Part shown: one piece after another, positions 22,884 through 56,336 of the stretch
Layout: each line of letters starts with the position of its first letter
Position numbering within the stretch: the first letter of the stretch is position 1
NCBI GenBank assembly: GCA_019454045.1
Contig: SKCR01001819.1
Span: 62,001-126,000 of the forward strand
Source of the DNA: Zanthoxylum bungeanum
Taxonomy: Eukaryota > Streptophyta > Magnoliopsida > Sapindales > Rutaceae
Reading direction: 5' to 3'
DNA length: 64,000 nt
Program-made: the position numbers and the translations under genes
Notes under the pieces: model-generated
What the model was told of the DNA's origin: nothing
The model's input: the letters and a program-made list of their open reading frames with translations, nothing else
Database searches by the model: none

Positions 22884-23356
22884 ATGGAAGCCACTTCAAG
22901 AAGATGAGTTGTAAATATTTGTGTCTTTTGTGGTACTAGTGTTGGTACTAAGCCATAATACGTAGCGGCATCACAGGAATTGGGTCGAGTCTTAGCTGAA
23001 ATGAATATACACCTAGTATATGGCGGTGGCAATCTTTGACTAATAAGGATCATTTCAACGGCCGTACAGGATGGAGGCAGTCAAGTCTTGGGAATCATCC
23101 CAAAACCTTTGGCGAAAGCAAATCTGATAGGATCATCAAACGGAGATGAACTAATTGTGCCAGGTATGTCTGAACGACTTGTAGAAATGATTAACCGTGT
23201 TGATGCTTTTATTGCTTTGCCAGGTGGCTTAGGGACAATGGAGGAGATTTTTACAGTACTATCTTGGGCGAACTTGAACATACACCAGAAACCAATTGGA
23301 TTGTTCAACGCAGATGGATTTTATGATTTTCCTTGTGTATTTCTTGATGATGTCCG
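22884..23356 (+). pseudogene. LOG: LOG-like cytokinin phosphoribohydrolase, 5' part
   Basis: LOG enzymes release free cytokinin from its riboside 5'-monophosphate. From ATG 22884 the frame holds the family's nucleotide-binding start (VCVFCG-like: ICVFCGTSVG), LVYGGG, LGIIPKPL, an Arg before the core (MSERLVEM), DAFIALPGGLGTMEE with the PGGxGTxxE signature, and IHQKPIGLFNADGFYD. Three in-frame stops lie at 22905, 22956 and 23037. The part from PGG to FYD is intact. No intron is present, although plant LOG genes normally have several. Copia DNA enters at 23357; the frame resumes in phase at 56151. Including that part, the length is 217 residues, the usual size of plant LOG. It sits after Athila integrase and before the element's purine tract. 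Confidence 0.85.
23352..23356 (+). repeat. Target-site duplication, left copy (GTCCG)
   Basis: The five bases before the copia 5' LTR pair with GCCTG at 56151-56155. They differ by two C/T transitions. The right copy fits the LOG-like reading frame (Ala-Trp), so it is probably the less changed one. Confidence 0.6.
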
Positions 23357-25297
23357 TGTTATGGATATTCCCTATACCCAACTTATGGACGGGATATATG
23401 TACATGTATTTGTAATATTTTCATTAATTAATAAAATGGCAATCTTTATTATACGTGTCTTACATAACTTATATGAATCATCAACATTATAATAAAGCCA
23501 TTGGAGTAATAAGACGATGGCTTCCACGCCTTATGAGAATCATTACTCTTAAATGTTCCTAGTCATAGTTTTATGAATAATCTGGGCGTTCACAAAGCAT
23601 AAAGACTAGCATGATGATATGATTCGCCCTTAAGTGGGGTAGCCAATCTCATAGGCTACTAGCAGAGATCCATCCACTTGGTGTATCATATGGATGCATG
23701 AGTTGATCGTGTCCATCGAACCGACCGCCGAAAGTTTTCATATGGAGTGTTTATCCCATGTGTCTGTGAGAACTTTCATGTATCGATTATATGACTAGTC
23801 CTTTGACTTGAGGTCTTTACAATCTTATGTGTGGATCAAACAACTTTGACATTCTCCTTCCCCGGTTCAAAAGATTCGGTCATAAGGGTATGATTGGGTC
23901 GTTTGTTGAAACACATGAAGTTTGTAAAGATACAACAGAGAATCGCTATTCTCTCGGATAATATTTTCTTATAAGAGTAGTATTCCAGTTCGCGGGTTGA
24001 TATGTGTGATCAGTGCTTGAGACTGTGGCCACAGCGGAAGAATCATATGAGATTCTTGGGTTAGCACGATTCATGACACTATCAACATCATACCTTTGAC
24101 CATATGGGTAGACATTTTCCGTACCCCAGGTCAATATGTGGGGATACAGTGAGGCGATGGACCGTATCATATGTAAATCGCATACAGAATGGGTATATAT
24201 ATCTTTCCTTCTCATTTGGGGGGCCTTGGCATGTTGCTAGATGTCAACCTTGGTCATTGAAATCGAACGACCATCTTATCGGAGGATAATTTATGTTCGA
24301 TTAAATTATCACAATTCATTTCATGTCCAACTTGAGGGGAACCCAAAAGGTCACACACAACAAAGTTAAAATCAATGGTTAACAGTGCACAGTAAAAATA
24401 TAACAGCATATATGATTGATGTAGGAATTATTCATAAATTGTTCAATGTGTTTAATTATTGAACAGATCATTTATGAGGTTCCATAGTGGCTTAGGGATT
24501 GGTGAATGATGATAGGGGCACTTTGGGATTTGGAATAAAAAAAATTAAAAAACAAATTACTATTAATATGAATAGTAAAAAAAATTATTTGTTTTGAATT
24601 CCAATTCGGCCCAAACTCTTATTAGGGTTTTATAATCTCATTAAATCATTAAATTAAGATCCAATGGCTAAGATTAAATTAGTTTTTATCCCACATCGGA
24701 TTCTTAATTAATTTTGTTGTCTTTGGAGCACTATATAAACCCAAATAATTCTTCACAATTTTTTTACACCAAAACCTTTCATATATTGGGTTTATATAAG
24801 TGAGCAACTCTAAAGTTTAAGAGTAAGCCACTGATTTTGAAGATCCTTAAGTCTAATTGACTAGAGAAACCTCTAGTTAAAAGTTTTGAGGTATTTGCCT
24901 AGACTAGCACCAAGGGCAAAATACCCTTGCACTCAAGGTGTAGTCTTGTCGTTGAGTTTTGGCTTTGGTGTGTGCATCTTTAGAGGCAACACACTTGGGT
25001 GGCTCTTTGGAACGTGGAAGAGCTTGCTTAGTTCGAGAAAAGCTTGTAGATTGGAGGTAGGACTGGAGGAGTCTACGGTTCAAGTAAGTCTTTTTATTTA
25101 TTTATTTTATTTAGAGTTCTTATGATAGTTAGCATGTTTAGGTTTATGTTCTTTGCATGTTTTATGAGTTTTATGCTTAGAATATATAGTAACATGCCTA
25201 GGCTTGTAGAATAATCAAAACAAATGGGTCTTGGGTAAAGGGAAAGCGGTATAATAATTTTGATTTTCCGCTGCGCACTCGCGGCCGTTTCCCAACA
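23357..25297 (+). repeat. Copia 5' LTR (1.94 kb)
   Basis: It starts TGTTATGG and ends CCCAACA before the primer-binding site. It pairs with 54237-56150 over its whole length; the two look roughly 90% identical or a little higher by eye. A TATATAAAC box lies at 24732-24740. A palindrome around ACTATTAATATGAATAGT lies near 24560. Confidence 0.92.
24732..24740 (+). promoter_or_regulatory. TATA box of copia LTR
   Basis: TATATAAAC follows GGAGCAC; the same element stands at about 55587-55595 in the 3' LTR. It marks the likely U3/R region. Confidence 0.65.
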
Positions 25298-25298
25298 G

Positions 25299-25310
25299 TG
25301 GTATCAGCGC
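25299..25310 (+). promoter_or_regulatory. Copia primer-binding site
   Basis: TGGTATCAGCGC, one base after the LTR end, is a one-base variant of the initiator-Met tRNA site. Confidence 0.88.
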
Positions 25311-26678
25311 GTCATTTTTGTTTTGATTAGTTCTCACTCATTTGAACTCGCAATTGGGTGTTTAAAAGCTCGTTGGAAAGCTAACACCCTGAACTTAATT
25401 TTAGGCACAAGTTTTAGATGATTTGGTTAATATTTGAATTGTGAAATTACATTTAAATTCATGCGTCTGCATAAAAACGTGAATAGTAAATTTATTTGAA
25501 TAAAATAAAATACAATATCATAATTAAATATTAATCAAAGTTATTTAATGCCTAAAATAATTCCAACATACTAAAACTCATATACTTGATGATTCTATGT
25601 ATGATTAGAATTGGCATGATTATTTTATGGTGCAAGCATCTAGAGACTTTCTAAGAAATAGAGAGTGTATTGCTTATCTCTTAGCTAAGTAATTATTCTG
25701 TGATGAACTTAGAGATTTATTACCTTTAAGGCTAATAAATATAAATCACTTGTTTATAATAAAAGACATTATAAAAGATACAAGTGGGTTGGGACCAAGG
25801 GGTTAATAAAACTTTCCAAACTAAAGTTAATTTAACCAAAGGTATTACTAGAGTTAGATAATGATTTGGTGTCTTCCTTCACTCACTACCTTTTTATAGC
25901 CAAAAGGAAAAGCTGTGAAGACATCTAGATAATCATTTACTCAAAGCTTACCTTAAAGCATATTTAAAGTGTTGGACTAATTTGGAGGATATATTGTTTA
26001 TTCCTGTCACCAAGGCAATAAGAGCCTAAGAAGTAAGGGTATTTAAGAGAGTTCGCTACACCCTCCCTCTGGGGAATTTTCAATTGAGGAATCCATTTGA
26101 CAGTTATTCACTTAAACTTACTAAAACCCTCAATAATCATTTAAGTCTAAAATTTTACCTCCCATTGTAAAGTCTAGACCCAAAGGGCTTAAACCATATT
26201 GGCAGGACTAGGCTTTACGAGACTGACCAATACTAATTTATCCCTAAATCGTACTATTGACAATGGTTTGACTTTTCTAAGTCATAAGATGCAGCGACCC
26301 TTAGGCGTGGTCTTATAACTTAGTGGCAAAGATTGGGTGTCCACAAGGACTAGCATAAGTTATGCCATGTTTGATTGCCCAACCCAATGACCAATGAATT
26401 GTGATTTATATCATAAATTGGTTGGGAACCTACCTAATTATCATATTTTATAACGACCGGCCCTAGTCGGAGTTATGAAATAATGACAATAGGATCCTTG
26501 CCCACAAGAATCCATTATATTGGGGTTGATGCGATTTGTTTAAACTTTTAAAACAATTGAGTGGGAGCAACTTCATAATATTAAAAGCCCATGTTATTAT
26601 GAAACATTAATGAAAACATATTCCTAATTTTAACATTTTCTCTTAAGAGGTGGGTTAAAATATTTCACAAACATTCAA
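25311..26678 (+). other. Copia 5' leader
   Basis: Long untranslated leader without coding potential. Bases 25833-26110 match the leader of the Tat gypsy elements (58972-59226, and the reverse complement of about 52150-52400); the sequence on either side does not. Confidence 0.75.
25833..26110 (+). repeat. Module shared with Tat gypsy leaders
   Basis: Runs such as TAATCATTTACTCAAAGC, TATTGTTTATTCCTGTCACC and GGGTATTTAAGAGAGTTCGC occur in the same order here and in the Tat leaders, with small indels. It is the only segment I see shared between copia and gypsy elements in this window. Confidence 0.85.
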
Positions 26679-27089
26679 ATGGAAAACAGAGTATCACTTC
26701 GTTCCATCCTTGATGAGCATAAGCTCAAAGGGGACAACTACAATGACTGGTTTAGAAACCTTAAAATTGTCTTACGACAAGAAAAGATTTTCTATGTTCT
26801 TGAAAGACCATTTCCCCCTGAACCCGTAGAAAATGTTGACCAAGATACATTTGATGCTTGGAAGAAACACGTCGATGATGTTGAGCAAGCAGTTTGTATA
26901 ATGCTTGGCTCTATGTCGGAAAAACTTCAGAAAGCTCACGAAGATATGGATGCTCAAACCATCATCTTTCACTTGAAGGAGTTGTATGCAACTTCCGTTC
27001 ATACCGTGAGATTCCAAGTGTCATGTACCTTATTCCAAACAATGTATAAGGAAGGATCTGTTAGTGGACATGTGCTTAAGATGATTGGC
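26679..27089 (+). pseudogene. Copia Gag, N-terminal 137 codons
   Basis: The intact frame begins MENRVSLRSILDEHKLKGDN and contains NDWFRNLKIVLRQEK, a WKKHVDD motif and HVLKMIG, as in Tork/SIRE-like plant copia Gag. It stops at 27089, where the LTR of element 1 begins. The zinc knuckle, protease and integrase that should follow are nowhere in the window, so they were lost in the deletion that ends at 52825. Confidence 0.9.
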
Positions 27090-29126
27090 TGTTGGGAAAT
27101 CTCTAAGTCCCGAGGATCGATTATCAAGCATAAAACACATATGAATACAACGAGAAAGTCGCAGAATACTCACAATGATCGGTTGAGCGATGCGGTGAAG
27201 AAAAAAAAACTTTTTCTCCTCCTTGGTGGTCACGGCAGTGGCTGAATTTGGCTCCTCCATTTTCGGCCATGGATCATCCTCCAAGCTCCAAGCTTCTCCA
27301 ATGGTGATTCCAAGCTCATTAAGTTAGTTCCCTATCACCTTTGTATGTACTCTTTGGTGTGCTAGCACTTGGTAATTTTGCCACAAAATCACCATGTTTC
27401 TCCTCTTGATTCTCGGTGAAAACCAGAAAGACAGAAGAAGAAAATGGCCTTGAGGCCGTGAGAGAGAGGGAGCATTTTGGCTCCAAAAACGTGAGCCTTG
27501 AGGAAAGAGAGAGAGATGGAAAATGTGTATGTCTTATTTAATTTCCAAAATCAATTAAACATATACCAAATATTTGATTTTCAAAAAGTCAAACAAGTAC
27601 AAGCATTAAAACTTATCCATCTACCACCATCAATCAATCAAGTGATAAGTTATCACATCACTCAAAGTGACATGTGATTTGACGCTTGATGTGACTAATG
27701 ATTTGACACTTGATGTGACTTGCGTGCCGCACTCGAATTCGAAATGCGAATGCGCTCGCAAATAATCTCGGGCTCGGGTTCGCTAATTCTAAATTAATGA
27801 ATTTTTCGTTGCGATGCAATTAAATGATTATGCCTAGCGAAATCACTATTCACATCATTAACGAATTAATTCTAAATTAACTCGTTCGCCTGAATTATAA
27901 TCTAATTTCAATTTCGCGTTGAAATCCAATTTCGTATAATATATCGAATATATTATTTTATCGATTAATTCCAAATTAATCGTTCTCTCTCTTTCAATGA
28001 TATTTTCTCCCAAATAAAATATCTCCGCAATTAATCCCAGATTAATTTTCTCTCTCATCTAATTAATCCCAGATTAATAAGTGCGAGTCATACGTCATCG
28101 GTGAATCTTCGGGAAGCGACCCATGAGATCCCAGATATGTTGGCAGTAAATACGGTCGTTGGACTATCCGAACACGTAAGTACCTAGTACTACGTTTGTA
28201 CCGATTTACAAGACATTGTTGGCTTCTAGCAAAGTATCATGCCTACCCAATTCTCTAGAAATATCCTTACAGGAATATGTGATCTATATCAGGCTTAGTA
28301 TACGTAGTATTGAATATTTTGATCCAGTATCGGATGATCACATACTAGGCCTAGGGCTGGAATTGTGTCTGCCCCGTACGAAGCACATATCGGATCTCTG
28401 GTAACTAGTCTCTATAATCGGATAAACATGACCTAGTCATTTTATCCCGATAACTGCAGTACATAAGAGAACCAGTTCCGTATCCTACGTGACCATCATC
28501 TCCACTATGACTGGAGTGATACTTCCGTCTCGACATCACACCCAACACACTACGATTCTCAATATACCCAGCAGAGGCATACACAGAACCTGTTAAAGCC
28601 ATGGACGACCTAAAACCAAAGCATATTGATTGTCGCAAGTATTAGCGGTGCAAGTCTCAGGTTAAGACCAAATACACCTACCCTGATTCGGACTTTCATA
28701 AACACATAGTCATACTACCAATGGAATTCTGAGGGGTCTATCCAGAGCAAAGCTATTTTCCATACCATCGGTAAAACATAACCTCCTACTACACTTGCAT
28801 GAGTATCATATACCCAAATATATGAGAACTATGCCGTTATGCCCTCACAACGTGAACAAGTGTAATACTAGTCTTTTACACATTATCGATGTCTGATCTC
28901 GATAATACTCTGACTATGGATATTTAATGATTAAACCTTCGTGGATTGATATTGTCTCATATCATCTCAATCCAGGAACTAATCATAAGGACCTCCTATC
29001 ATTTATACATCTTGGTGATCTAATCACAAATGATAAGAGAGCAATTTCTTTTGTAACATAGTTAATTTGTACAACAACACCATGATCTATACAAATAGTG
29101 ACACTATAGGTCATAACTATCCAACA
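27090..29126 (-). repeat. 3' LTR of element 1 (2.04 kb)
   Basis: It runs from TGTTGGGA at 27090 to ATCCAACA at 29126, beside the polypurine tract. It is the longest full LTR of the family here and carries the palindrome array at 27780-28080. Confidence 0.9.
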
Positions 29127-30815
29127 ATCTCCCACTTGGCCTATAGCCAGTCACTCGTGTGTCCTACACCCGAACTATGTACGGTTTGCTCAAATTACTG
29201 AGAAAAGACTTTCGTCAGCGGATTTGCATGATTATCATCTGATGCGATTTATACGATCATCACATCGCCACGATGTATGATCCGAACGAATCAGATGAAT
29301 AATCAAATTATATATCTGGATCATTGATGAGACCATTAATTCTTTAGCCTGCGCTGAAGCCTAGCTCAGCTGCTAACATAACTATATCAAATCTAATTAG
29401 ATTATTATCGACCCAAATGGCTTCTATTGCTACCTCAGCTGCAGCAATAACCCGCTTGTGTTGTTTATTCGGTAACAGTATCTTGCTCGGAAGATTTCCA
29501 GCTCACTGTACCGTTATTCAAATTGTATAATATCGTTTGCGACTTATAGTCATTTTATCGGTTTAGGAAACTTGTAGCAGTGATCCCAGTCACTTCAAGT
29601 TCTATTTCTCCATAGTTTAAGACATCATCCTTAGTTCCTCTAAGATACTTAAGGATGTCCTTAACATCAATCCAAAATATAAATAATTGTGTCCCAGACA
29701 ACAATGCCACAATTAAGTCTCTTCTGATGAAATCAATTTGAGCTATTTGTTTGTCATGTTTCATATGTTTGAGATTTATTTATATTCAAAATATAAATAA
29801 TTTTATTCACATCTAATGTGTTTATCTCAATATCATCTTTATAAAATAAAACACTTTAGTATTCTAGAATATAAAGGTATACCCGCAACGGGTTAAACCC
29901 TGATATAGAGATAATGTTTCTAGTCAAACTAGTTACATTGTAACAATTTCCTAATTTAAGTACACACCCGAAGGCAGTTCCTAAACTTAGGTATCTACGG
30001 TTAAAACAGGGACTTTCGTCCCGTTTCCTATTTGTAGATATATCTCATCTGAAGTCAGTATCCTGCTCATAGCAGATTCTGCACACCAGTACATATTTAT
30101 GTACCACACTAAGTATCTAAAAAACAATTTTAATACTAGTAGTGAACATATTTATGACAATCATATTTGAAGTCAGAGCCTTGCCCGTTGTTCAATTCCT
30201 TCATGTCTGCTTTGTCCAAACGGCAGTCACGCTTCCGCGATCCCATTTGCCACAATTTAGGCAGACATTTTGGGATATGTCATTTATCTTCCTAGAAGAT
30301 TATAATGATTTTGCCTTTTCCTTTTTCAACACTCTAGAAGCCTTTGGCCAAGCCTTGGCCTTCTGGGTTGTTGAAGTAAGGTGCGCCTTGCGCTTCTTGC
30401 CTTATTGCAAACTTTGGCCTTAACTTCTTGAGAATAGCCATTAACTCTCCAAGAGTTTACTATTGCAATTTAGTACTTCTAAGATCTAAGAATAGATCTA
30501 TGAAGATCCTTCAATTTCATTATCATACTTTAAGAATCTAATCCTTAGTTCTGATTAAGAAATTAAGGAGTCTATTCGGCAAGCTTAATGGATTAAGCAC
30601 TAAAGTTATCATCACATAAATCTTCCAAAGATTATGCTTCACTATTTGCTTAACTCCGGGCTTAGGCCTAATATGTTATTTTATCAAATAAAGTAACTTA
30701 TTAGTTTCCAGGACCATCCTGAAATTTTATTCCCAAATTGAAAATTAAATTATTTAAATACATTTTCCCTAGGATTATGTTTTAAATGTCAATCTTTCAA
30801 TTTTATCTTGATTCT

Positions 30816-31077
30816 AATAGTCCAACTATTTAATCAACGATTTAGGTACTATTTATTATAATGATTACTATAGTCCAACAATATAATCAACTATAATTTA
30901 ATTATTTAAATTCAATTATATTGATTACTATAATCCAATTATAAAATCAAGTATAATTAATTAAATCAAATATATTGATTACTATAATCTAATTATATAA
31001 TCAACTATAAATGAAATAGTTTGAATACAGTCCAACTGTTTTATTTAAAACAACTATTAAATATTAGTCCAACTAAT
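30816..31077. repeat. Palindrome cluster with CCA/CTA spacers (element 1)
   Basis: Perfect: AATAGT/ACTATT (30816-30830), TATAAT/ATTATA with CCA (30929-30943) and again with CTA (30983-30997), ACAGT/ACTGT (31027-31039) and ATTAGT/ACTAAT (31063-31077). Confidence 0.85.
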
Positions 31078-31384
31078 ATATTTGACGAATATTTCAAATG
31101 AGCGTGTATGGCAAGTTACTAAATGAATATTGCAAATTCAATACTTGCCTCCCACTATTTTTCGGCGAACCTCTAACCCTCTGTTGAGTACTCGGGAAAC
31201 CGTGTTTCCTAGTGGGCTAGGATCTCGTTAAATAACACACAATCTTGACTTTGGCCAACAAATTGTATGATAATTAACTAGGTAGATCTCTAAGATCAAT
31301 TGGATCTCATCCAATTCCTAGATCCAGTAGGGGGACATCTAAGTCCGAAACATATATCTTATATATGCCAATATATCTAATATA

Positions 31385-31657
31385 TTGCCTAACCTTTTTC
31401 CTCTGAATCAACTAAGCTTTGGCTTCGGCACAACAAACTTAGTGATCCCAGTTAAGCGGAACCCATTGACCATGGAAAGCTTCGTAATCAATGTCGATGG
31501 ACAAGAAGTGGTCTTGACTTTGGCCAACAAACCACAACTTGGACAAGACACCGATATGGAAAAAAAGCTCTTGTGATTCAAACACATCCTCGACGGACAA
31601 AGGCCTTGACTTTGGCCAACAAACCAATGACAGTCTTAGATCTTGAGTAAGAATCAC
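31385..31657. other. Conserved block with 93-bp imperfect repeats (copy 1)
   Basis: Same block as 4233-4481. The antisense frame is shifted after DTDME, so this copy encodes only the first part of the shared peptide. Confidence 0.5.
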
Positions 31658-32682
31658 TCAATGGAAGGAAAAACGCTTAAAATTTTGTGAGGGTTTTTCG
31701 CGTGCAAATTGGCAACCAATTGATTATCTTTGTTAAGGTCTCATCATCATACACCCTTAAACATGCATTCTAAACACATAATAAGGCGCGTAAAATAAAT
31801 AATAATGATATGCGGATGGATACTTTACACATTGTTCCTAGAACAAATCTCTCACTTTCTTCTCTCCCGCTAGCACAAGTATTGCTTCTACCTGTTACAT
31901 AAAACTTCTAAAGAAACCTCATTTACATTGAGGGGAATAGGTGAGAAGAGAAATACATAGAGTCAAAGAGGTAATAGGCTGGACACGCAGGTCCAATTAA
32001 TAAATTCTAAATTTATTACAACAATTTCCAAAATTGCCCCACCCATCTAATATCCATCTGATATACATTATTCATGCATCGCAACCATGTATTCACACAA
32101 GCATGTTATCAATCATTCTTATCCAATTAATTAATCTGATGTTAGTGACCATCCAATATTCAAACAACGATTTGATTTTGTGCGAGTCAAACTCGTTTTG
32201 CGAATAAGTTCTCAAAGTACGAATTCTTGAATTAAATTAACTACAACATTAAATCCAATTTAATATGTATTTAATACTAATCCATGTATTTAATTCTAAA
32301 TTAAATATTACACTTTATTAACGAACCTTTTACGACTTAGATTCATGTGGGAACACAGAAACTAGGCGACTCATGCTGTTCCGGGCTCACGGCCCGGTTG
32401 GGAGTATGGAGTAGCCCGCGGGGGACTAAATCGGAGAATGATGGAGTCGCCACCTGGTGTGAACCGGGACAAAGATTTAAGGCCGCACTCACCCCTCGCA
32501 AGGGAAGACCTCAAACCATTGGGTTCAGAATGGTCCCTTACTTATGCCACTTATAATAAAATGATTTGTACAATAATACAACCAAGCCTAATCAACATTT
32601 ATTTCCAAGGATAATTTACTCCTAATTTCACATGCATAAATACAAGGCTCATATCTAAGTTTGCATATAACCTATGTCTGGA

Positions 32683-32834
32683 TTTGCATACAACCTATTT
32701 GCATTTAATCTATGTCCCAATTTGCATACAACATATTTGCATATAATCTATGTCCAAATTTGCATACAACCTATTTGCATTTAATCTATGTCCCAATTTG
32801 CATACAACCTATTTGTATATAATCTACGTCTGAA
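32683..32834. repeat. Four 38-bp tandem repeats in the Tat LTR
   Basis: Units start TTTGCATACAAC at 32683, 32721, 32759 and 32797; a partial unit precedes them and another follows up to the copia C target site. Confidence 0.88.
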
Positions 32835-32841
32835 TTTGCAT

Positions 32842-32846
32842 GCATA
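32842..32846. repeat. Target-site duplication of copia C, left copy (GCATA)
   Basis: GCATA immediately precedes TGTTGG and is repeated at 42148-42152 right after the other LTR. Confidence 0.93.
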
Positions 32847-35609: not shown

Positions 35610-35821
35610 TCAATCCAAACATGGATCGAATAACTTGCAAACCTTGTTTGCTAGTTTTGGTATGACAAAACCGACAGGATGTTGTAAACATCCTCCAAAA
35701 GGTTTCCTTTTCAGGAAAGCGATTTTCCCGTTCAGCTGACATATTTCATAAATGAAACATGCAGCATTAGCAAGCATTATCCAAATGGATTTACCGTGGC
35801 AACAGGTAAAAGGTTGAATCG
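35610..35821 (-). pseudogene. Degenerate copia RT fragment in element C
   Basis: The peptide aligns loosely with the copia RT segment that precedes the catalytic box (LNGK, PFGGCLQHPVGF in place of the usual VYM-QPEGF, then KVCKL). It matches A at 1150-1320 at nucleotide level. No catalytic motif remains. Confidence 0.6.
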
Positions 35822-40491: not shown

Positions 40492-40492
40492 T

Positions 40493-42690: not shown

Positions 42691-42779
42691 TGCATGCAAC
42701 ACATATATAGACAAACAAAGCCACAATGTAGGACCTCACGTGTCGCATTGAACTCATTCCTATCTAATCATGTGTACCT

Positions 42780-44487: not shown

Positions 44488-44506
44488 GTTGCCCCCACTT
44501 TGATGG
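44488..44506 (-). promoter_or_regulatory. Polypurine tract of the Tat element
   Basis: On minus it reads AAAGTGGGGGCAAC up to the LTR start TGTAGGC; it primes second-strand synthesis. Confidence 0.85.
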
Positions 44507-44615
44507 GACTTGTGTAATGTGTAACAGTGACAATCCTATCAAAGTTATGCAATGCATTTTCACTTACCTGGCTTGCCAGCTGCCACCTGACTTGCTTGTT
44601 GTCTCGAACTAAGTT

Positions 44616-45250
44616 GATGATATAGTGGACCTCGATCCTAGGACGCATCCCAATAACTGCAACCGATAATGGGGGCCTCGACCCTGGGACGCATCCCAAT
44701 ACCGCTGACAAAAGGTGGGCCTTGACCTTGGGACGCATCCCGAAACTGATGATGCAGTGGACCTCGATCCTGGGACGCATCCCAATAGCTGCAACCGATA
44801 ACGGAGGCCTCGACCCTGGGACGCATCCCAATACCGCTAACAAAAAGTAGGCCTCGACCTTGGGACGCATCTCGAAACTGATGATGCAGTGGACCTCGAT
44901 CCTGGGACGCATCCCAATAACTGCAACTGGAAACGGGGGCCTCGACCCTGGGACGCATCCCAATACCGCTGATAAAAAGTGGGGCTCGACCCTGGGACGC
45001 ATCCCGAAACTAATGATGCAGTGGACCTCGATCCTGGGACGCATCCCAATACCACTGACAAAAAGTGGGCCTCGACCCCGGGACGTATCCCGAAACTGAT
45101 GATGCAGTGGACCTCGATCTCGGGACGCATCCCAATAACTGCAACTCGTATATGTGTTGATGTGGTCCTCAGCCCCGGAACGCATCCCCAAGACTGCTGC
45201 TAGTATTGATGTGGGCCTCGCCCCCTGGGATGCATCCCAAAACTATTGTT
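44616..45250. repeat. 132-bp higher-order tandem repeat in the Tat 3' UTR
   Basis: Each full unit is 40+46+46 bp, each subunit centred on CTGGGACGCATCCC. Full units start at 44616, 44748 and 44880; the unit at 45012 is 86 bp (one 46-bp subunit missing), and 45098 begins a diverged end. The period of 44 codons keeps several frames open on minus, which explains a 291-codon repetitive reading frame there; I do not regard it as a gene. Confidence 0.92.
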
Positions 45251-45421
45251 GGTATGTTGATGCTTCTAATCGGCTTGTCTTTGACGCCTTCTCTTTTCTT
45301 CTTCAAAACCTGTGAATACAAAACAAACACAAAACGAATGCCAGAATGTGTTACGTGTATACATGCATGCATGAGTTTTCTTATCCCGTCGGGTTAGGCC
45401 TTCTGCCAAGTCTTCTCTTTC

Positions 45422-46790
45422 TCAGGCAAAATATTGCTTCAATCTGTCCACGTTGATCGGCTCAGTGAACTCGTTACCTTCCAAGTCTGACAGTCTCACT
45501 GCCCCATTTCCTATTACTTTCTGCACTATGTAAGGTCCTTCCCAGTTAGGTCTGAACTTTCCTCTCGGATCTGTCATCGATGGCCTTGACTGCTTAAGTA
45601 CCAAATCACCCTTTTTTAATCTTAGTAGGGCGCACCTTCTTGTTGAATGCTCGAGCCAACCTCTTCTGATATATGTGCATGTGATGCAAGGACTTCATTC
45701 TCATTTCATCTAGCAGTGCTAACTGTTCAAACCTCTGTGCGGCCCATTCTTGCTCAGGTAACTCTGTTTCTGCTAATACCCTCATTGACTGTATCTCAAC
45801 CTCTACTGGCAGCACTACTTCCATTCCGTACACCAAAGAGTAAGGTATGGCTCCCGTCGCTGTTCTTACTGACGTTTTGTACCCTCATAAAGCATGCGGT
45901 AGTTTGTCGGCCCAATCCCTGCAGTTCTCTGTCATCTTGGCCAAAATTGTCTTTATTGTCTTGTTGGCTGCCTCAACTGCCCCATTTTCCTGCGGCCTGT
46001 ACGGTGATGACTTATGGTGGCCTATCCTGTATTTCTGTAGCATTGCCTTTGTTTCCCCCTGGAACTGAACTCCGTTATCTGTAACCACATGGTACGGTAT
46101 ACCATACCGACAAATGAGATTCCGAGCTATAAACTTTGCCATTTGTTTCGCTGTAACATTACGGAATGACTCGGCTTCCACCCACTTTGAGAAATAATCT
46201 ACTGCCACTACTATGAAGCGATGCCAATTCGATGCATTCGGTCGAATCTCTCCAATCACATCAATTCCCCATGTTGAGAAAGGCCACCGCTCTGACAACC
46301 CGTGTAACTTTGTGTGCGACAAATGATTCAAATTATCGTGTGCTTGACAATCATGACAGTGATTTACCATCTTCGCGTAGTCGGTCTCCATGGTTGACCA
46401 GTAAAAACCTTGTCTCACTATCTTGCGGGACAGATTCAACCCGTTCATGTGCGGACCACATACCCCGGCGTGTACTTCTTCCATTACCTGCTGAGCCTCT
46501 TCCTTTCTCAAAAATTTCAACTGAAAACCGTTTGCTTGCCTCTTGTACAGTTCCCCTTCCAAAATCACATATTGGGAAGCTAATTTCTGAATGGCTAATC
46601 TGTCTTTTCTGCCTGCTCCCTCCGGGAGTTCCCCGTGTTCCAGATACCTTTGAATGTCGTGATACCAAGGTTTACCATCATCGATCTCCACTTCCAAGAC
46701 TCTTTGTATCTCATATACAGGCATGTTCCATGTTGTCAGTATCAATGGTCTCATCACTAACTTTTCCGGATTCTCCCAAGTCGCTGCAAG
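45422..46790 (-). pseudogene. Tat integrase
   Basis: The zinc domain lies at about 46500-46350 (VHAGVCGPHM, then CHDC), and the catalytic core in the same frame has WGIDVIGEI, VVAVDYFSKWVEAE, VTDNGVQF and RPQENGAVEAANKTIKTIL, giving D, D and E. A stop at about 45882 and a later frame change at 45605 interrupt the C-terminal part, which ends GNGAVRLSD, PINVDRLKQYFA. It would insert cDNA. The core looks intact; the C-terminal breaks probably abolish a full product. Confidence 0.92.
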
Positions 46791-47160
46791 TGTAGCTAAT
46801 GCATCTGCCATTTGATTCTTTTCTCTCGGCAAGTGCTGAAACTTACAATCGGGGATAACCTGTGCCAACTTTCTGAGGTGAAAAAGGTAAGGTTTCAACC
46901 ATTCTTCTTTCAATTCCCATTCTCCCTGCATCTGTCGGATCACCAGCATCGAATCTCCGTAGACCTCCACACTCTCAGCCTTCAAGGCTATCAGCGCAGT
47001 CAAACCAAAAGAACATGCTTCATACTCGGCCATGTTATTAGTTACTCTGAACGTCAACCTCTTGGGCAAAAGCAAAGTCTCTCCTTCGAGGGTCACTATC
47101 ACGATCCCAATTCCGACTCCTTGCAATTCACTGCTCCGTCAAAATACATTTTCCATCTCT
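46770..47160 (-). pseudogene. Archaeal-type second RNase H (aRNH) of the Tat element
   Basis: After the normal RNase H, a second domain starts with YFDGAVN (about 47151), breaks by frameshift near 47110, then runs on with GVGIGIVIVTLEGETLL, VTNNMAEYEA and YGDSMLVIRQMQGEW, ending in KNQMADALA. The NNMAEYEA and GDS motifs carry the catalytic acids. Tat elements are known to have acquired this extra domain between RNase H and integrase. Apart from the frameshift the active-site residues are present. Confidence 0.88.
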
Positions 47161-49049
47161 GAACTGTTATTGCTTGGATCTCTTCATCTGGAAATTCAAA
47201 CTTATGATGATCCCCTTCAATAGGTTGCAATGCCAGAAACTCTGCTACAGCTTGCCCCTTGATCACTTTGGAAGTGAGGTACTCAATGTCAAACTCTGTC
47301 AGCAACACTAACCATCTGCCCAATTTCCCACTAGCGAAGGCACTGAATGCAGATATTTCAAAGGATTCTCCTTTGCCACTACCTGGATCTTGTAAGATTG
47401 GAAGTAATGCCGCAATTTTCTGGATGCCCATACTACTGCCAAACAGATCTTCTCTACTTCTTGATAGCGGGCTTCATACGGAAGCATTTTCTTACTGAGA
47501 TAGTAGACTGCATGCTCTACCCCGGTCTCATCTGCCTGTACCATCATTGCCCCCAATGCTTCTGATTCTATAGCCAAATACAGTACCAAGGGTGTGCCTG
47601 GTCTCGGAGGTTTCAATACAGGAGGCTTCACCAAGTATTCTCTGATCTTGTCGAAAGCTAACTGACACTGCTCAGGCTGGTCCTTTCTCGACAGTCTGAA
47701 GATAGGCTCACATACTGATGTCAACTTGGCGATGAACCGACTGATATACTGAATCTTCCCAAGGAATGCTCTAACCTCTTTCTCTGTCTTCGGTGCTGGC
47801 ATCTCAGTAATTTCCTTGATTTTCTCAGAATCTACTTCTATTCCTCCCATTCCCACTGTATGTCCCAGTAATTTTCCAGATGTTACCCCAAACACACATT
47901 TCTTGGGATTCAGCCGCAAGTTGTATTTGTCAACCCTTTGAAGAAACTTCTCCAGTGCTTCTATATGCCCAATTCTTGTCTCTGATTTCACCATCATGTC
48001 ATCCACGTACACTTCAATCTCTTTGTGCATCAGATCTTGGAACAATGTAGTGGCCATCCGCTGATAAGTAGCTCCTGCATTTTTTAGCCCAAACGGCATT
48101 ACCTTGTAACAATAAGTACCATACTATGTGACGAAGGCAGTTTTGTGCTTGTCTTCCTCAGCCATAAAAACCTGATTATACCCTGAAAACCCATCTGCAA
48201 ATGAATACATGGCAGATAAAGCTGCACTATCAACTAGTACATCAATATGAGGTAGAGGAAAATCATCTTTCGGACAAGCCTTGTTGAGATCTCTGTAATC
48301 CACACACATTCTGACTTTCCCATCTTTCTTCGGCACTGGCACAACATTTACTAACCATTCGGGATAATTACCACTTCCAGGAACCCCACATCTATCTGTT
48401 TCTTAACCTCTTCTCTGACCTTCTCGGCCCTCTCAGGTCTCATCTGTCGAAGTTTCTGTTTCACTGGCTTTATATTCGGATAAGTTGGTATTGTGTGCTG
48501 GGCAATGCTTCTGTCTACCCCAGGCATGTCCTCATAGGACCAAGCAAACACTTTGGCATATCTGACCAATACTTCTTCTAATTTCTCCCGCTCTTCAGCG
48601 GTAACTTCACTTGCAATCAGAATTTCCTTAGGATTCTCAGGCGTGCCTAAGTTAAATGCATTCGTTCTGGTGGAGCTGATATCAAATATACTCAAGCCAT
48701 GCAAGTTAGAGGAAAAAGACTCGGGCAAATAAGCAAAATGATTGTCTTTATTGCTAATAAATGTGGGAGTACACTCAAATAAATCAGGAAGATAAATGTC
48801 TTCATCATCGACAGACACTTCATCCTCCGCAACTAGGTTCTTCTCAGACTTCTTATCTTCTTCGAGAGTCAGGCTCAACAACTTCATAAATTCTTCTTCC
48901 CAATTCTCTTCCTCCACAACTTCTTTGGTCAGCGGCTTCTTACCCAACATATCCTGAAAGATCTCAAATCCAGGCACCACAATCCCATTAACTTCTATTG
49001 GTTCGGGCTCACCTTGATACCCCGAAGACTTCACAAAGCATTCCGTCAA
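47161..49049 (-). pseudogene. Tat reverse transcriptase and RNase H
   Basis: A long N-terminal part (49049-48351) leads to the RT core: RMCVDYRDLNKACPKDDFPLP, FSGYNQ, then MPFGLKNAGATYQRM and the catalytic VYVDDMMVKS (near 48013). The connection region has GHTVGMGGIEVD and RAFLGKIQYISRFI. The RNase H domain (about 47560-47280) keeps SKKMLPYEARY and EKICLAVVWA but lacks the usual first Asp-rich motif, as is common in Tat. Breaks: a stop at 48350, a stop near 48123 and a frameshift near 47310. Confidence 0.93.
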
Positions 49050-49140
49050 TTTCAGCCCTTCTTTTTAACCTTCGGCTTTTCCTCATCAAATTTGTACCCC
49101 AAACCCCTCCGAGTAGTCTGTCCTCTAAAGTCTGGCAGTT

Positions 49141-49924
49141 TTAAACCCTCACCAGCTCGAACTTCATTTTTCCCATGATCCTAGCTAACTTAGGATCCAC
49201 CCATTCCACAAAAGTTGCTGACATTTGGAACCTCGTGAAAGGTTGTATTTCCAAAGCAGCCACAACATTATCTACCTCAGCTCGGATGGTGACAATCTCT
49301 CCCCCATACGGGAACTTAATCATCTGATGCAGAGTGGAGGACACACCCCCAAGCTTATGAAACCAAGGCATTCCCAACAATAAGGCAAAAATGGATGGGA
49401 TATCTAGCACTGTGAACTCAACTTCATCCTCAATAGGACCAACCTTGACCGCTGCTACAAATGTACCCTCAACTCCTCACTTACTGTCATCATAAGCCTT
49501 GATAGTCATACTAGAGGGATCCAATTGTTTTTTTTATACCCAGCTTGGCCAAAATCTTCGACGGGCATACATTAATGGATGAGCCGTCATCCACCATCAC
49601 ACAAGAGGTCATTTTACCTCTCACTTCAGCTCTGATAAACGAAGGTCTATTATGATTTCTCCCCTCAGCTGGGAGTTCTTCCTCAGAAAAAGTGATTGCC
49701 TGCAAAGCCTCCTTTTGCACTGACCCAACAAACATTACGGTGTTGGCATCCTCCGTCACCACTATCTTGCTTAAGGCCTCAACCATGGCCCGCCTGTGCT
49801 CCTGAGATGCACACAACAAATCCCAGATACTCACTTGTGCTCGGGTTTTCCTTAACTGTTGCCACACTACATCTCCATCAGCATTTTCTGTATTCTCAGC
49901 CACTTTTCTACCCTCTGATAACAC
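49141..49924 (-). pseudogene. Tat aspartic protease region
   Basis: Frame 49924-49511 ends with SCVMVDDGSSINVCPSKIL; the DDGSS motif stands where Tat elements usually have DNGSS or DTGSS. A second frame (49410-49141) contains FALLLGMPWFHKLGG, the typical LG-PW signature after the protease flap. A frameshift between them and a stop at 49141 break the gene. Confidence 0.85.
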
Positions 49925-50284
49925 TCATTTACCCTTCTCAGTCATATCATTATAGAAACGCCCACTACGTGTCATCTCCCTCACTTCTTCTTCATCACTA
50001 CTGGAGAAGTCTTCCCAGAAATTATGCCCTCATTCTGTCTCATCTTCACTGTTACTATCCCAAATTCCAAGGCAATAGGTTTGGTGGTCAAAGGATTTGA
50101 GGACAAGGCTTTCGGGTAGGCCGAAGTTTATCATATAGGTTGGTGGGGGGACAGAGTGGTAATTGGGTAGGGGATTTTGGTGTGTGTTGGGGAGTTCTGT
50201 TTCAGGGTCGGGTATCTTTTTGGAGTCTATAAGGTCCTGGATTTCATGGCGGAGGCGGGCATAATTATCAGTGTCATGGCCTTT
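49925..50284 (-). pseudogene. Tat gag-protease spacer
   Basis: Proline-rich (PNTPQNPLPNYHSVPPPTY), disordered linker in the gag frame after a stop at about 50287. Nothing else is seen. Confidence 0.6.
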
Positions 50285-51368
50285 CTATTGGTGGAAGTGA
50301 CAGTATTGGCTTAGGTTGAGATGTGGTGGTGGAGGGTTGGGAAATGGTTTGGTCTCCAGGGGTTTCAGAATTCCTTGTCTTTTTAATTTCTCCAACACCT
50401 TAGACAAGGGCCTCCCTAAGTTGGAGAATCTCCGATTCCGGATGGTAGCAATCTCCGCAGAAACAGGTTTGGTACCTGATGTTCCCCCAATAGGCCTCCT
50501 ACTTAGGCCATAAAACTTCATGTTCTCTGCTTCTTCTTCTTCAATATCCATGATAGTTTCCCTCAACTGTCAGAAGTCATTGATCATAGAGGTCATCCTC
50601 CTTAGTTTCCCATAGATTGAGGGCTTGGTGCCCTTGATGATCATCTTAATTTGGTCCTTCTCTGAGGGCCGAGTCTGCATCTTTAGGAGCTGGCTTCCCC
50701 AGCGGTCTACATACTCTTTGAATCTTTCCTTAGGCTTCTGCTTAGTGTTCTCCAAATCTCGGAGTGACAAATCAATTTCCAGATTTGTAACATATTGCTT
50801 CAGAAAAGCATCAGCCAGTTCCCTCCAATATTCCCTAATCTTCTTCTCAAGGCTGTGATACCAAACTACCGGCGCTCTCCTCAAGTGACATCCCAAACAT
50901 TTTATGCACTGGACGCTTGGATAAACCCACTGAACTCATAACTGAAACATATTGACGGAGATGGACCCTCAGATCCCTATTCCCATTGAACTTAGCCATA
51001 TCCGGCATCTTGAACTGAGCTGGCAACTGTTTTTCGAAGGTCATTGCCTCATAATCTAACAACTCCTCATGTTTACCCCTCATTTTACGGGTAACTGTTT
51101 CAACCTGATCCCAAAGCCTTTGAAATTCTGCCTGAGATCCAATCACTATGCCTGTTGCATACTCTTCCATGTCGTCATCAAAAGCGAGGATATCATCCCC
51201 CAACCCATTCGGAGGCTCCTCGCGCCTCACATTCTCAAAATTCCCCCCAGCACGGGGTACAACCATACCAGCCACAGCAGTAGTCAAGGCTTGCAACTGT
51301 TCAGTAATTTTGGCGAGACCTTTTTCCAACTGATCTATCCGGGATACCTCATTATCGGATGTACTCAT
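50285..51368 (-). pseudogene. Tat Gag
   Basis: It starts at ATG 51368 (MSTSDNEVSRIDQLEKGL), where a coiled-coil region begins; the longer frame to 51491 is leader sequence. The capsid includes PDMAKFNGNRDLRVHLRQY, then after a frameshift near 50880 WYHSLEKKIREYWREL, FLKQYVTN, LRDLENTKQKPKERFKEYVDRW and KMIIKGTKPSIYGKL. Near the end FPNPPPPHLNLSQYCHFH carries a C-H-H zinc element. Stops at about 50570 and 50287 follow. It would build the particle. Frameshift plus stops make it inactive. Confidence 0.9.
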
Positions 51369-51491
51369 ATCTGTTACCGGTCTTTTAGTGAGCCTTCCCT
51401 CTTTCCTAACCCAACAGGAATCTATGATGTCTTTTATAGACATAGAGGGTGTTAACAGGATATATGTGTGCATGAGATGAATAAGATGCAT

Positions 51492-52490
51492 GCGATATAA
51501 GGAATATATTAATTCATTGAAATTTCACACAAATCGGCCCATCATCATTATAGAAGCTTTTAGGCTAACTGTCATAGGAGTGAATTCGTCCCAGTTTAAA
51601 TGGCCCAACAAGTTCACACCTCATGGCAAGAAGTCCAACCGTATCCAAATGATAATGCTCCCAAACACAAACATATAATGGCCCATTGGCGTTTTAGAAA
51701 CTTTTGGCCCAATCATCATAAGATACGTTCTTGTCCCAGTTTAAATGGCCCAACAAGCCCAAACTTCATGACAAAAGGTCCGAATGGATTCAAACGACAA
51801 TCCAAACACAAGCATACAGAGATAATTTCTACAGAGTGGCCCATCAACATTTCATAAGCTTTTTGACCAATTTTCATATGATACGAACTCGTCCCAGTTT
51901 AAATGCCCCAACAAGTTCGCATTTCTGACAAGAAGTCCAACTGCATCCAAATGAGGATGGTCCACAAGCACAAGGAAATAGTTGTTATAGGCCATACAAC
52001 CTTGGTCTACATGTGGGTTTGCGGGAGTGTAGACAAGGACTCTCACTGGTGAAGGATTGCCCACAACTAGGTCTCCCCACCCAAGGGTTCGAGCGACCAA
52101 GTGAGCGCACCTTTTTTATACCTTACAGTACGTGCCAACGAGTTATGGTGTGTTACTGACTGTCAGATGGATTTCCCATTGTAGATTACCCAGAGGGAGG
52201 GTGGAGCGAGGCTCTCTTAAGTACCCTAGCCTCTTAGGCTCTTATCGCTTGGTGACAGGAATAAACAACGAGTCCTCCAAATTAGTCCATCACAATAGGC
52301 TACAAGTAAATGATTATCTAGGTGCCTTCACAGCTTTTCCTTATAGAAAGGTAGTGAATGAAGGAAGACACCAAACCATTACCCAGCCTTAAAGAATGCC
52401 TTTGATTAAACCTCTTTCAACCCATAGTAGACACGGTTAATTAAAGCACAAATCATAATAATACAAGACATTATTTCGAGGCCGATTCTC
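51492..52490 (-). other. Tat 5' leader
   Basis: Untranslated. It holds three diverged copies of a GTCCCAGTTTAAATG-type repeat (51588-51910) and, at about 52150-52400, the module shared with the copia leader. No coding potential. Confidence 0.75.
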
Positions 52491-52510
52491 TATCCCTAGT
52501 GGAGTCGCCA
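52491..52510 (-). promoter_or_regulatory. Tat primer-binding site (tRNA-Arg type)
   Basis: On minus TGGCGACTCCACTAGGGA stands three bases after the LTR end CCACA; it matches the 3' end expected of tRNA-Arg(ACG), the primer reported for Ogre/Tat elements. Confidence 0.85.
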
Positions 52511-52513
52511 GAC

Positions 52514-52825
52514 TGTGGGAACACAGAAACTGGGCGGCGCATGTTGTTCCGGGCTCGCGGCCCGGTTGGGAGTACGGAGTAGCCCGCGGGGGACTAAACC
52601 GGAGAATGATGGAGTCGCCACCCGGTGTGAACCGGGACAAAGATTTAAGGCCGCACTCACCCCTCGCAAGGGAAGACCTCAAACCATTGGGTTCGGAATG
52701 GTCCCTTACTTATGCCACTTGTAATAAAATGATTTGTGCAATAATACAACCAAGCCTAAGCAACATTTATTTCCAAGGATAATTTACTCCTAATTTCGCA
52801 TGCATAAATACAAGGCTCATATCTA
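52514..52825 (-). repeat. Tat 5' LTR, only the 3' end left
   Basis: 312 bases paired with 32346-32657. It stops abruptly after ATATCTAAGT, where copia RT starts. Confidence 0.9.
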
Positions 52826-54223
52826 AGTCTGGGACTTGGTGGATGCACCTGAATGGATAAAACTCACAGGCTGCAAGTGGATGTACAAGCGTAAAACTAA
52901 AGCAGAAGGCAACATCCAAACCTATAAGGCTAGGTTCGTGGCGAAAGGTTATAGAAAAATCCAAGGAATTGACTATGACGAAACCTTCTCGCCTGTTGTA
53001 ATGATAAAGTCCATTCGAATTTTACTGGCACTAGCTACACACTTTGATTATGAGATTTGACAGATGGATGTGAAAAAAGCTTTCCTTAATGGGAACCTCG
53101 TAGAGGAAGTCTATATGACACAACCTGAGGGGTTTGCATCTAAGGATGATCATAATAAAGTATGCAAGCTTAAACGATCCATTTATGGACTCAAGCAAGC
53201 CTCCAGAAGTTGGAATATACGATTTGATGAGATAATCAAAGAATTTGACTTCATCAAAAATGTAGACGAGCCTTGTGTTTACAGGAAAAGTAGTGGGAGT
53301 GCTGTTGTATTTCTTGTATTATATGTCGATGACATATTAATCATCGGGAATGATATTCCCATGATGCAAGCCACCAAGCAATGGTTATCTCAGAATTTCT
53401 CCATGAAAGATTTGGGAGAAGCAACCTACATCCTCGGCATTAATATCTACCTTAATAGATCTAAGAGGTTGTTAGGACTTTCACAATCTACGTACATAGA
53501 TAAAGTTTTGAAAAGATTCAAAATGAAAGATTCCAAAAGAGGTAATTTACCTACTTATCATGGAATCAAATTACCTAATGAGCAATATCCACACACTCTT
53601 TCAGATAGAGAGCGTATGAGTAGGATCCATTATGCTTCAGCAATATGATCGATCATGTACGCCATGCTATGTATAAGACCTGATGTCTCTTATGCTCTTA
53701 GCATAACGAGCAGGTATCAGGCAAATCCTGGAGAGCAACACTGGGCAGCTGTCAAAACAATCCTCAAGTATCTGAGAAGAACTAAGGATACAAACAGGAT
53801 ATCTATTTACTTTGAATGGTGGTGCTGCCAGTTGGAAAAGCTAAAAGCAGTCAACTACAGCGGACTCCACCACTGAAGCTGAGTATATTGTAGCATCTGA
53901 GGCTGCTAAAGAAGCAGTCTAGATAAAGAAGTTCATCACAGAGTTGGAAGTGCTTCCCGCGATAAAGAATGGCATCACGATGTATTGTGACAACACGGGC
54001 GCCATTGCTCAATCAAATGAACCAAGGTCCCACCAGAAATCCAAGCATGTACTCAGGTGATTTCATCTCATCAGGGAGATTGTTGAGAGAAAAGAAGTTA
54101 TTATAGAGAAAATACCCACAGAAGATAATCTTGCAGATTCTCTGACTAAAGGGCTGACTCAACAAAAGCATGATAGGCACAACCGAGAGTATGGTGTCCA
54201 GATTCATACTAGTTGGCTATAGT
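52826..54223 (+). pseudogene. Copia reverse transcriptase and RNase H
   Basis: RT begins inside the domain (DLVDAPEW, GCKWMYKRKTKAEG, ARFVAKGY), then DETFSPVV, a stop at 53058, MDVKKAFLNGNLVEEVYM, YGLKQASRSWN and the catalytic YVDDILIIGND. RNase H follows after a stop at 53646 and a frameshift near 53800: TTEAEYIVASEAAKEAV, YCDNTGAIA, KSKHV and ADSLTKGLTQ, ending HTSWL. At least four lesions (also 53920, 54058). The RT core is otherwise almost intact, in contrast to the A/1/C/D family. Confidence 0.93.
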
Positions 54224-54224
54224 G

Positions 54225-54236
54225 CAAGTGGGAGAT
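54225..54236 (+). promoter_or_regulatory. Copia polypurine tract
   Basis: CAAGTGGGAGAT immediately before the 3' LTR start TGTTAGGG. Confidence 0.88.
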
Positions 54237-56150
54237 TGTTAGGGATATGCCTTATACCCAACTTGTGGATGGGCTATATGTACATGTATTTGTAATATTT
54301 TCATTAATTAATAAAATGGAAATCTTTATTATACGTGTCTTACATAACTTATATGAATCATCAACACTGTAATAAAGCCCTTGGAGTAATAAGACGATGG
54401 CTTCCACGCCTTATGAGAATCATTACTCTTAAATGGTCATAGGCATAGTTTTGTGAATAATCTGGGCGTTCACAAAGCAGAGAGACTAGCATGATGATAT
54501 GATTCGCCCTTAAGTAGGGTAGCTGATCTCATAGGCTAGTAGCGGAGATCCGTCCGCTTGGTGTATCACATGGATGCATGAGTTGCTCGTGTCCATCGAA
54601 CTGACCACCGAAAGTTTTCATATGGAGTGTTTATCCCATGTGTCTGTGAGAACTTTCATGTATCGATTATATGACTAGTCCTTAGACTTGAGGTCTTTAA
54701 AATATTATGTGTGGATCAAATAAATTTGACATTCTCTTTCCCCGGTTCAAAAGATCCGGTCATAATGGTATGATTAGGTCATTTGTTGAAACACATGAAG
54801 TTTGTAAGGATACAATAGAGAATCGCCACTCTCTCGGATAATATTTTCTTATAAGAGTAGTATTCCAGTTGCGGGTTGATATGTGCGATCAGTGCTTGAG
54901 ACTGTGGCCACAGCGGAATAATCATGTGAGATTCTTGGGTTAGCACGATTCATGACACTATCAACATCATACCTTTAACCATATGGGTAGACTCTTTCCG
55001 TACCCTAGGTCAATAGGTGGGGATACAGTGAGGCGAGGGACCGTATCATATGTAAATCGCATACATAATGAGTATATATATCTTTCATTTTCATTTGTGG
55101 GCCTTGGCATGTTGCTAGATGTCAACCTTTGTCATTGAAATCGAACGACCATCTGATCGGAGGATAAATTATCACGATTCATTTCATGTCCAACTTGAGG
55201 GGAACCCAAAAGGTCACACACAAAAAAGTCGAAATCAATGGTTAACAGTGCACAGTACAAATATAACAGCATATATGATTGCTGTAGGAATTGTTCATAA
55301 ATGGTTCAATATGTTTAATTATTGAACAGATCATTTATGAGATTCCATAGTGGCTTAGGGATTGGTGAATGACGATAGGGCCACTTTGGGAATTGGAATA
55401 AAAAAAATATTATTCACGTGAATAGTAAAAAAAAATTTGTTATTTGTTTTGAATTCCAATTCGGCCCAAACTCTTATCAGGGTTATAAAATCTCATTAAA
55501 CCACTAAATTAAGATCCAATGGCTAAGATTAAATTATCTTTTATCCTACATCGGATTCTTAATTAATTTTATTGTCTTTGGAGCACTATATAAACCCAAA
55601 GAATTCTTCACAAGTTTTTACACCAAACCTTTCATATATTAGGTTTATATAAGTGAGCAACTCTAAAGTTTAAGAGTAAGCCTCTGATTTTGAGGATCCT
55701 TAAGTCTAATTGACTAGAGAAACCTCGAGTTAAAAGTTTTGAGGTATTTGCTTAGGCTAACACCAAGGGCAAAATACCCGTGCACTGAAGGAGTAGTCTT
55801 GCCGTTGAGTTTTGGCTTTGGTGTGTGCATCTTTGGAGGCCACACACTTGGGTGGCTCTTTGGAACGTGGAAGAGCTTGCCGATTTCGTGAAAATCTTGT
55901 AGATTGGAGGGAGGACTGGAGGAGTCTTCGGTTCAAGTAAGTCTTTTTCTTTATTTATTTTAATTAGAGTTCTTATGATAGTTAGCATTTTTAGGTTTAT
56001 GTTCTTTGCATTTTTTATGAGTTTTATGCTTAGAATATATAGTAACTTGCCTAGGCTTGTAGAATAATCAAAACAAATGGGTCTTAGGCAAAGGAAAAGC
56101 GGCATAATAATTTTAATCTTCCGCTCCGCACTCGCGGCCGCTTCCCGACA
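54237..56150 (+). repeat. Copia 3' LTR (1.91 kb)
   Basis: TGTTAGGG to CCCGACA; partner of 23357-25297. TATA box TATATAAA near 55587. Confidence 0.93.
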
Positions 56151-56336
56151 GCCTGGAGAAATGGGTTCGTGTCAAAACCTTTAAAAGAACTCATTTTCAC
56201 TGCCAGAACTACCCTAGATTTAATTGACCAAATCTTAGCCTTTGAACCACAAATTGACCTTATTATTTCCAAGATAAATTGGTCCGATAATGATCGTGGT
56301 AAGAAGTGTCAGATTAATCTGGATCTTAACCTTTAA
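56151..56336 (+). pseudogene. LOG: LOG-like frame, 3' part
   Basis: After removing one copy of the 5-bp duplication, the frame from 23351 continues in phase here (AWRNGFVSKPLKELIFTA), matching the C-terminal LOG segment usually read as GFI followed by a SAPTAKEL-type helix; LIDQILAFEP follows. It has no stop until TAA 56334-56336. The tail is longer and more basic than I would expect and ends LDLNL, an LxLxL pattern that may be chance. Restoring continuity shows the copia element split a coding sequence rather than landing beside it. Confidence 0.82.

Follow-up and report, generated by a model that had tools for sequence, protein, structure and literature searches.

Does a LOG-like gene lying inside a retrotransposon mark a chance arrival, or is it a gene that the element family has kept, and to what end? 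This question is raised by a 64,000-nt stretch of Zanthoxylum bungeanum contig SKCR01001819.1 (hereafter the window, to which all positions refer), which was analysed together with the 3.96-Gb host genome. A preliminary description of the window, made from its letters, had placed an intronless LOG-like frame of 217 codons in an Athila retrotransposon and proposed the capture of a spliced host mRNA; that description is partly confirmed, the observation being real and the arrangement not a one-off. Taken as a whole, it is probable that the window contains a dead copy from an old, high-copy Ty3/gypsy family that carries a pair of accessory genes downstream of integrase and ahead of the 3' long terminal repeat (LTR), a gene resembling viral nucleic-acid-binding proteins (NABP-like) and an intronless LOG, and that this LOG, maintained by selection and with a rebuilt substrate pocket, would act on the host as an accessory protein.

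The LOG identity of the frame was borne out by a strong match to PF03641 (E = 9e-25 over 23088-23360, over the cut-off), by its PGGxGTxxE motif and by its best PDB match, Arabidopsis LOG3 (2a33, E = 1.2e-43). Part 1 of the gene (22884..23356, plus strand, ATG at 22884) comprises codons 1-157 plus two bases, while part 2 (56156..56336, plus strand), which matches LOG3 weakly by itself (E = 0.73), includes the stop codon and ends in an EAR-like tail, INLDLNL. With one target copy counted, the two pieces add up to 217 codons plus a stop, in agreement with the length first reported. A full-length working frame was not recovered, as in-frame stop codons are present at 22905 (TGA), 22956 (TAA) and 23037 (TGA), and a 32.8-kb Copia-type insertion, which went unmentioned although the coordinates first given span it, cuts LOG at 23356/23357. 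With three stops and this insertion, the gene in the window is dead twice over. The inserted element (23357..56150, plus strand) has further elements nested within it, an RVT_2 domain at 53064-53648, and LTRs at 23357-25297 and 54237-56150 that differ by a Kimura two-parameter distance (K2P) of 0.065, presumably corresponding to an age of 2.5-4.7 million years under the substitution rates that we assume. It is flanked by the 5-bp target copy GTCCG (23352..23356, plus strand) and a second copy, GCCTG (56151..56155, plus strand), alike at three of five bases; matches of relatives to the two sides overlap by at most 5 bases, indicating a degenerate target duplication.

Two samples of relatives were drawn from the genome. 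A search with PF03641 gave 47331 first-look candidates, a loose count in which element copies stand beside other hits; of the 150 best, which were scored, every one exceeded the cut-off. Thirty profile-selected loci were compared with the window, among which three pairs differ little or not at all and could reflect duplication in the assembly. Since selection by profile score had skewed the sample first used for dN/dS, the non-coding leader between the NABP-like gene and LOG (22625..22880, plus strand) was used as a second bait, which avoids picking copies by their coding state; 40 of 2395 candidates were scored and 30 loci, including the window, were fetched. LOG sequence of at least 150 codons was found in 29 of these 30 leader-selected copies, and NABP-like sequence of at least 100 codons just upstream of it likewise in 29 of 30. 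The arrangement therefore recurs across the genome, and the locus is neither solitary nor the exception among LOG-less relatives. No gap of the Copia type interrupts LOG in 28 of the 29 other leader-selected copies, as they cover at least 206 of its 217 codons, and the two sides are contiguous in 30/30 profile-selected relatives, in a search that favours contiguous copies.

The function of the element LOG is inferred, with residues numbered here as in CgLOG. The catalytic Arg99 and Glu122 are both present in the window LOG, and among the 120 retroelement-type rows listed, of 2789 matches to the element-type LOG, Arg is retained in 109 and Glu in 116. The LOG fold is kept as well, and the protein is predicted to cleave, probably still, a nucleoside 5'-monophosphate. 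The side-chain site is a different matter. His97, Lys100 and Glu125, which have been proposed to form, together with Met96 and Trp129, the cytokinin side-chain (prenyl) site, are mostly replaced across the element LOGs and read S, L and T in the window copy, which thus lacks three of the proposed residues of a cytokinin-activating pocket. Only the early branches P0029/P0034, P0049/P0087 and P0058 have all three, and Lys100 and Glu125 each change once on the tree and then stay changed. Since the pocket has been rebuilt, the substrate of the element LOG has probably changed too. The preliminary description had instead proposed that the element-borne enzyme still yields active cytokinin; cells with an active element would then be driven to divide. 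The retained fold and mostly retained catalytic residues would suit this, as would the early branches, from which it follows that the captured enzyme probably had cytokinin activity, and the persistence of His97 in 25 of 120 listed rows; but with all three residues altered in the window copy, and two of them never restored on the tree, cytokinin output is doubtful, and we consider this explanation unlikely.

The C-terminus suggests another aspect of the protein. LxLxL defines the EAR motif, and a tail of this kind, present in the window LOG, terminates 60 of 83 retroelement-type rows of at least 205 aa versus 0 of 118 canonical LOGs. This basic, EAR-like tail would bring LOG to the nucleus and to TOPLESS-type corepressors. 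The most likely role would be that of an accessory protein acting on the host cell in which the element is expressed, possibly through altered nucleotide or hormone metabolism, through transcription, or both. A non-enzymatic version of this, in which the LOG fold serves for dimerisation or nucleotide sensing and the tail does the work, would explain the frequency of the tail, its low ratio of nonsynonymous to synonymous differences (pN/pS 0.237 for residues 205-217, a stretch not covered by the Pfam profile with which copies were selected) and the 11 of 120 listed rows without the catalytic Arg; yet the near-universal Glu and prevalent Arg exceed what a pure scaffold needs, and we rank it a little below the cytokinin proposal. 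Rows with Gln in place of Arg include P0012 and P0028, the former ending in LDIDLNR, which is not LxLxL.

A dN/dS comparison among element-borne copies, as the preliminary description had suggested, gave ratios below 1. For the 18 full-length copies among the 30 profile-selected ones, the median dN/dS was 0.252 (150 of 153 pairs), compared with 0.79 and 1.25 in shifted frames, and residues 1-10 gave a ratio of 0.90. In the leader-selected sample the median pN/pS of LOG was 0.396 (29 copies, 401 pairs), with 0.722 in 14 close, young pairs and 0.353 in 193 distant, older ones; for the NABP-like gene the median was 0.537 (29 copies, 404 pairs), with 0.73 in 36 close and 0.457 in 162 distant pairs. 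The fall of LOG from 0.72 to 0.35 with age indicates selection on the propagating lineage accompanied by decay of most copies, and LOG appears to have stayed functional through the history of the family. Were both genes neutral passengers amplified with the element, their low ratios would have to come from sampling. The near-neutral young pairs, the 27 of 30 sampled copies without an open LOG and the depression of dN by profile-based selection would fit such passengers, but the leader-selected older pairs, the residues outside the profile, the shifted frames and the persistence of recognisable LOG-type proteins, at 53-59% identity, across several rosid orders do not, which makes the idea improbable.

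Several points count against the favoured reading of a selected LOG that acts on the host. Picking copies by LOG profile score lowers dN, as evidenced in a pN/pS of 0.189 inside the PF03641 profile and 0.387 outside it (15 copies, duplicates removed); the pairwise ratios are not independent, and their medians are descriptive. Open LOG frames were found in 3 of the 30 leader-selected copies by the criterion used here, and open NABP-like frames also in 3. The catalytic Arg is replaced by Gln in all 11 rows that lack it. As for the tail, it is disordered in the model, short motifs like LxLxL arise easily, and it needs four changes on the tree, which means either a gain followed by loss or repeated gains. 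Outside the Z. bungeanum genome, moreover, the link between these proteins and an element consists of two pairs of equal-sized contigs, described below, and a published report on Citrus and Populus.

The origin of the gene was approached through introns and phylogeny. A search of the host genome with a canonical LOG pattern found 25 places, of which some are probably the same gene in duplicate. Arabidopsis LOG3 aligns to each of the 20 loci fetched in at least three pieces, and recurrent breaks fall around residues 42, 74-84, 118, 142 and 189. Homologous open reading frames (ORFs), by contrast with the split host genes, run through LOG without interruption, as do the element copies, and the reported lack of introns holds. 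A tree of 64 rows was built with 26 of the 120 database rows and 16 of the 20 host loci among them. Its 34 element-type rows group in a single clade (100/98) that lies outside all 16 host and 12 canonical plant rows, as they also do (99/99) in an earlier 60-row tree with 36 of the 120. Since the canonical rows were taken from one search around LOG3 and LOG8, further plant LOG lineages could be sparsely represented. A recent capture from the present host is rejected on this placement. Named members, 17 of the 120 listed, belong to Populus (6), Xanthoceras (6), Diplodiscus (4) and Reevesia (1), which implies that the capture predates, or has crossed, several rosid orders. In IMG/VR viral contigs, 23 loci with distant LOG-like matches (at most 42% identity) were found and no close relative. 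Together, the tree, the introns and the pN/pS values support an old capture of a spliced LOG, acquired once, presumably by way of reverse transcription, and its maintenance under purifying selection in the propagating lineage; the capture by a Ty3/gypsy element suggested at the outset is thus supported, with a recurrence of 29/30 and 20/20 split host loci, although the source lies outside the sampled host genes. The remaining proposal, a processed LOG pseudogene that landed by chance in one Athila copy, would suit an intronless gene broken by stops, but it is rejected as extremely improbable because LOG recurs in nearly all leader-selected copies and forms one old clade, and because its flanks are element DNA common to 30/30 LOG-selected copies, with no poly-A run seen directly 3' of the LOG stop.

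The first gene 3' of the integrase is the decayed NABP-like gene (22072..22618, plus strand), recognised through its homologues. The position first given for LOG, after the integrase, stands in that LOG lies 3' of the integrase pieces, but this gene comes before it. Its frame has 201 homologues at E<=1e-3; among the 120 of these listed, 101 carry PF01623 and/or PF05515 in a precomputed list and 61 are 181-186 aa long. Six of seven database relatives scanned exceed at least one of the two Pfam cut-offs, the own-genome copy L031 is over that of PF05515 and under that of PF01623, and the open piece in the window itself gave no Pfam hit. By inspection, the relatives share with the carlavirus and allexivirus NABPs (Pfam Carla_C4 and Viral_NABP) a basic stretch directly before a cysteine cluster, whereas the spacing is C-x2-C-x4-C-x3-C instead of the C-x2-C-x12-C-x4-C given for a carlavirus NABP in the accessible part of PMC8839810, and the element protein has about 182 aa and resides in a retroelement. 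The viral proteins of this type are silencing suppressors and, in carlaviruses, also symptom determinants, according to the portions available of PMC12389679 and PMC8839810. Database rows of LOG and NABP fell on equal-sized contigs three times against 2.6 expected by chance, and twice against 0.045 expected for contigs of at least 2000 bases, which is supportive for long contigs only.

NABP-like sequence lies within about 1 kb upstream of LOG in 23 of the 30 profile-selected loci. Four of these were examined further; in three (L029, L031 and L039) gag is joined to the end of the integrase, with the reverse transcriptase (RT) and nearly all of the integrase missing, and in L050 the integrase is present. 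Among the other seven loci, six have LOG and leader behind a short match to 21940-22062, and L051 shows the LOG part only. A match to the region of the primer binding site (PBS) was found upstream in all four examined of these seven, with no match to gag, RT or integrase in the stretch fetched. A long acidic open frame precedes LOG in three of the seven and has a weak match of 23-25 residues to the window upstream of the LOG element. This frame measures 241-270 codons in the stretch covered (L025:2596-3393, minus strand; L026:1-810, plus strand; L030), and the two scanned gave no Pfam match at E<=0.01. It is conceivable, though we would not expect it, that the two genes form a host-directed module, in which a viral-type nucleic-acid-binding protein is paired with a remodelled nuclear LOG that recruits TOPLESS through its tail and acts on another nucleotide instead of cytokinin, with parts of it surviving even in derivatives that have lost RT and integrase (leaving gag, NABP-like gene and LOG) or that lack gag, pol and NABP and have another ORF upstream of LOG.

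The YgdH domain, which is of the LOG family, has reportedly been recorded in Ty3/gypsy elements by Steinbauerova et al. (Genetica, 2011), the source cited for it. LOG (YgdH) domains in such elements are indeed already in print: the part of PMC9289625 at hand places them in Ty3/gypsy consensus sequences of Citrus sinensis and C. clementina and, without copy filter, in Populus trichocarpa. The same configuration, a LOG-family domain within a plant Ty3/gypsy element, is seen here, whereas that part of the account gives no analysis of structure, origin, selection, active site or neighbouring genes. It also covers AlkB genes in Ty3/gypsy elements of Phalaenopsis, likewise a host-type enzyme fixed in such a lineage, but a different enzyme, which was assayed in vitro and found active. 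Compared with canonical plant LOGs (Arabidopsis LOG3, 2a33, and LOG8, 1ydh), the element LOG shares the fold, the PGGxGTxxE motif and, in most members, the catalytic Arg/Glu pair, and differs in being intronless, in the side-chain residues altered in most members, in its separate clade and, in most members, in the extra basic LxLxL tail. Neither the NABP-like gene linked to LOG nor its altered pocket, its tail or the derivatives without pol were found described in the literature searched, as far as the accessible parts of the sources go, nor was there a report, judged by titles and abstract starts, of carlavirus-type proteins or an EAR motif in retrotransposons. A large survey of extra ORFs, in the portion consulted of PMC6317226, counted those of at least 250 codons; at 217 and about 182 codons, LOG and the NABP-like gene fall below this, which may be why the pair went unnoticed.

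In this family an enzyme of the host's hormone pathway has become a persistent gene of a retroelement present in many copies, next to a viral-looking gene, and jumping DNA may carry tools to act on its host. The purpose of extra ORFs in plant retroelements becomes directly testable in this case, as the fold has been established, clear predictions follow from the altered pocket and the tail, and natural relatives with open frames exist. Three poplar rows of the element-type list (P0042, P0047 and P0051) bear the NCBI name 'probable ... LOGL10', and retroelement ORFs can thus enter counts of the LOG gene family.

The element that carries LOG displays gag, RT and integrase in this order after a PBS, as expected for Ty3/gypsy. 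Its 5' LTR (14337..16570, plus strand, 3' end approximate) was delimited by relatives, in which the stretch downstream of LOG matches from 14337 (4/4 examined) and upstream stretches match the window up to the PBS (16572..16589, plus strand; three mismatches, 0 in 100 shuffles), which we take to be Asp-tRNA-like. The gag frame (16764..17804, PF03732, E = 2.4e-20), an RT fragment (19461..19904, PF00078, E = 5.8e-25) and the zinc-binding part and core of the integrase in broken frames (20542..21540, PF17921, E = 1.4e-08) follow, all on the plus strand; the core itself matches PF00665 weakly (E = 6e-4), under its cut-off. The element is probably of the Athila lineage, a label taken from the preliminary description and from RT motifs. 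In the pieces of the window that were scanned, the Athila ORF-1 domain PF03078 did not appear at the thresholds applied, and most Athila elements lack it, the figure in the part consulted of PMC6317226 being 16% with the domain.

Beyond LOG, a 3' region common to relatives (56337..56791, plus strand) contains a G-rich tract at 56436-56447. The purine-rich tract described 3' of LOG therefore exists, but it is not the LTR-adjacent one, as it lies about 100 bases past LOG while the 3' LTR begins about 1.3 kb past LOG in 4/4 relatives examined. Homology to 30/30 profile-selected relatives ends at 56789-56791, and no 3' LTR of the element was recovered from the window, which makes another insertion or a deletion likely.

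Other repeats were also noted in the window. A second Ty3/gypsy element (45885-49924, minus strand), with an RT motif that we presume to be Tat-like, is nested in the Copia-type element. Long segments at 1-7000, 27500-42100 and 60500-64000 are repeated at about 83-96% identity, in direct and inverted orientation, and occur both inside and outside the Copia insertion.

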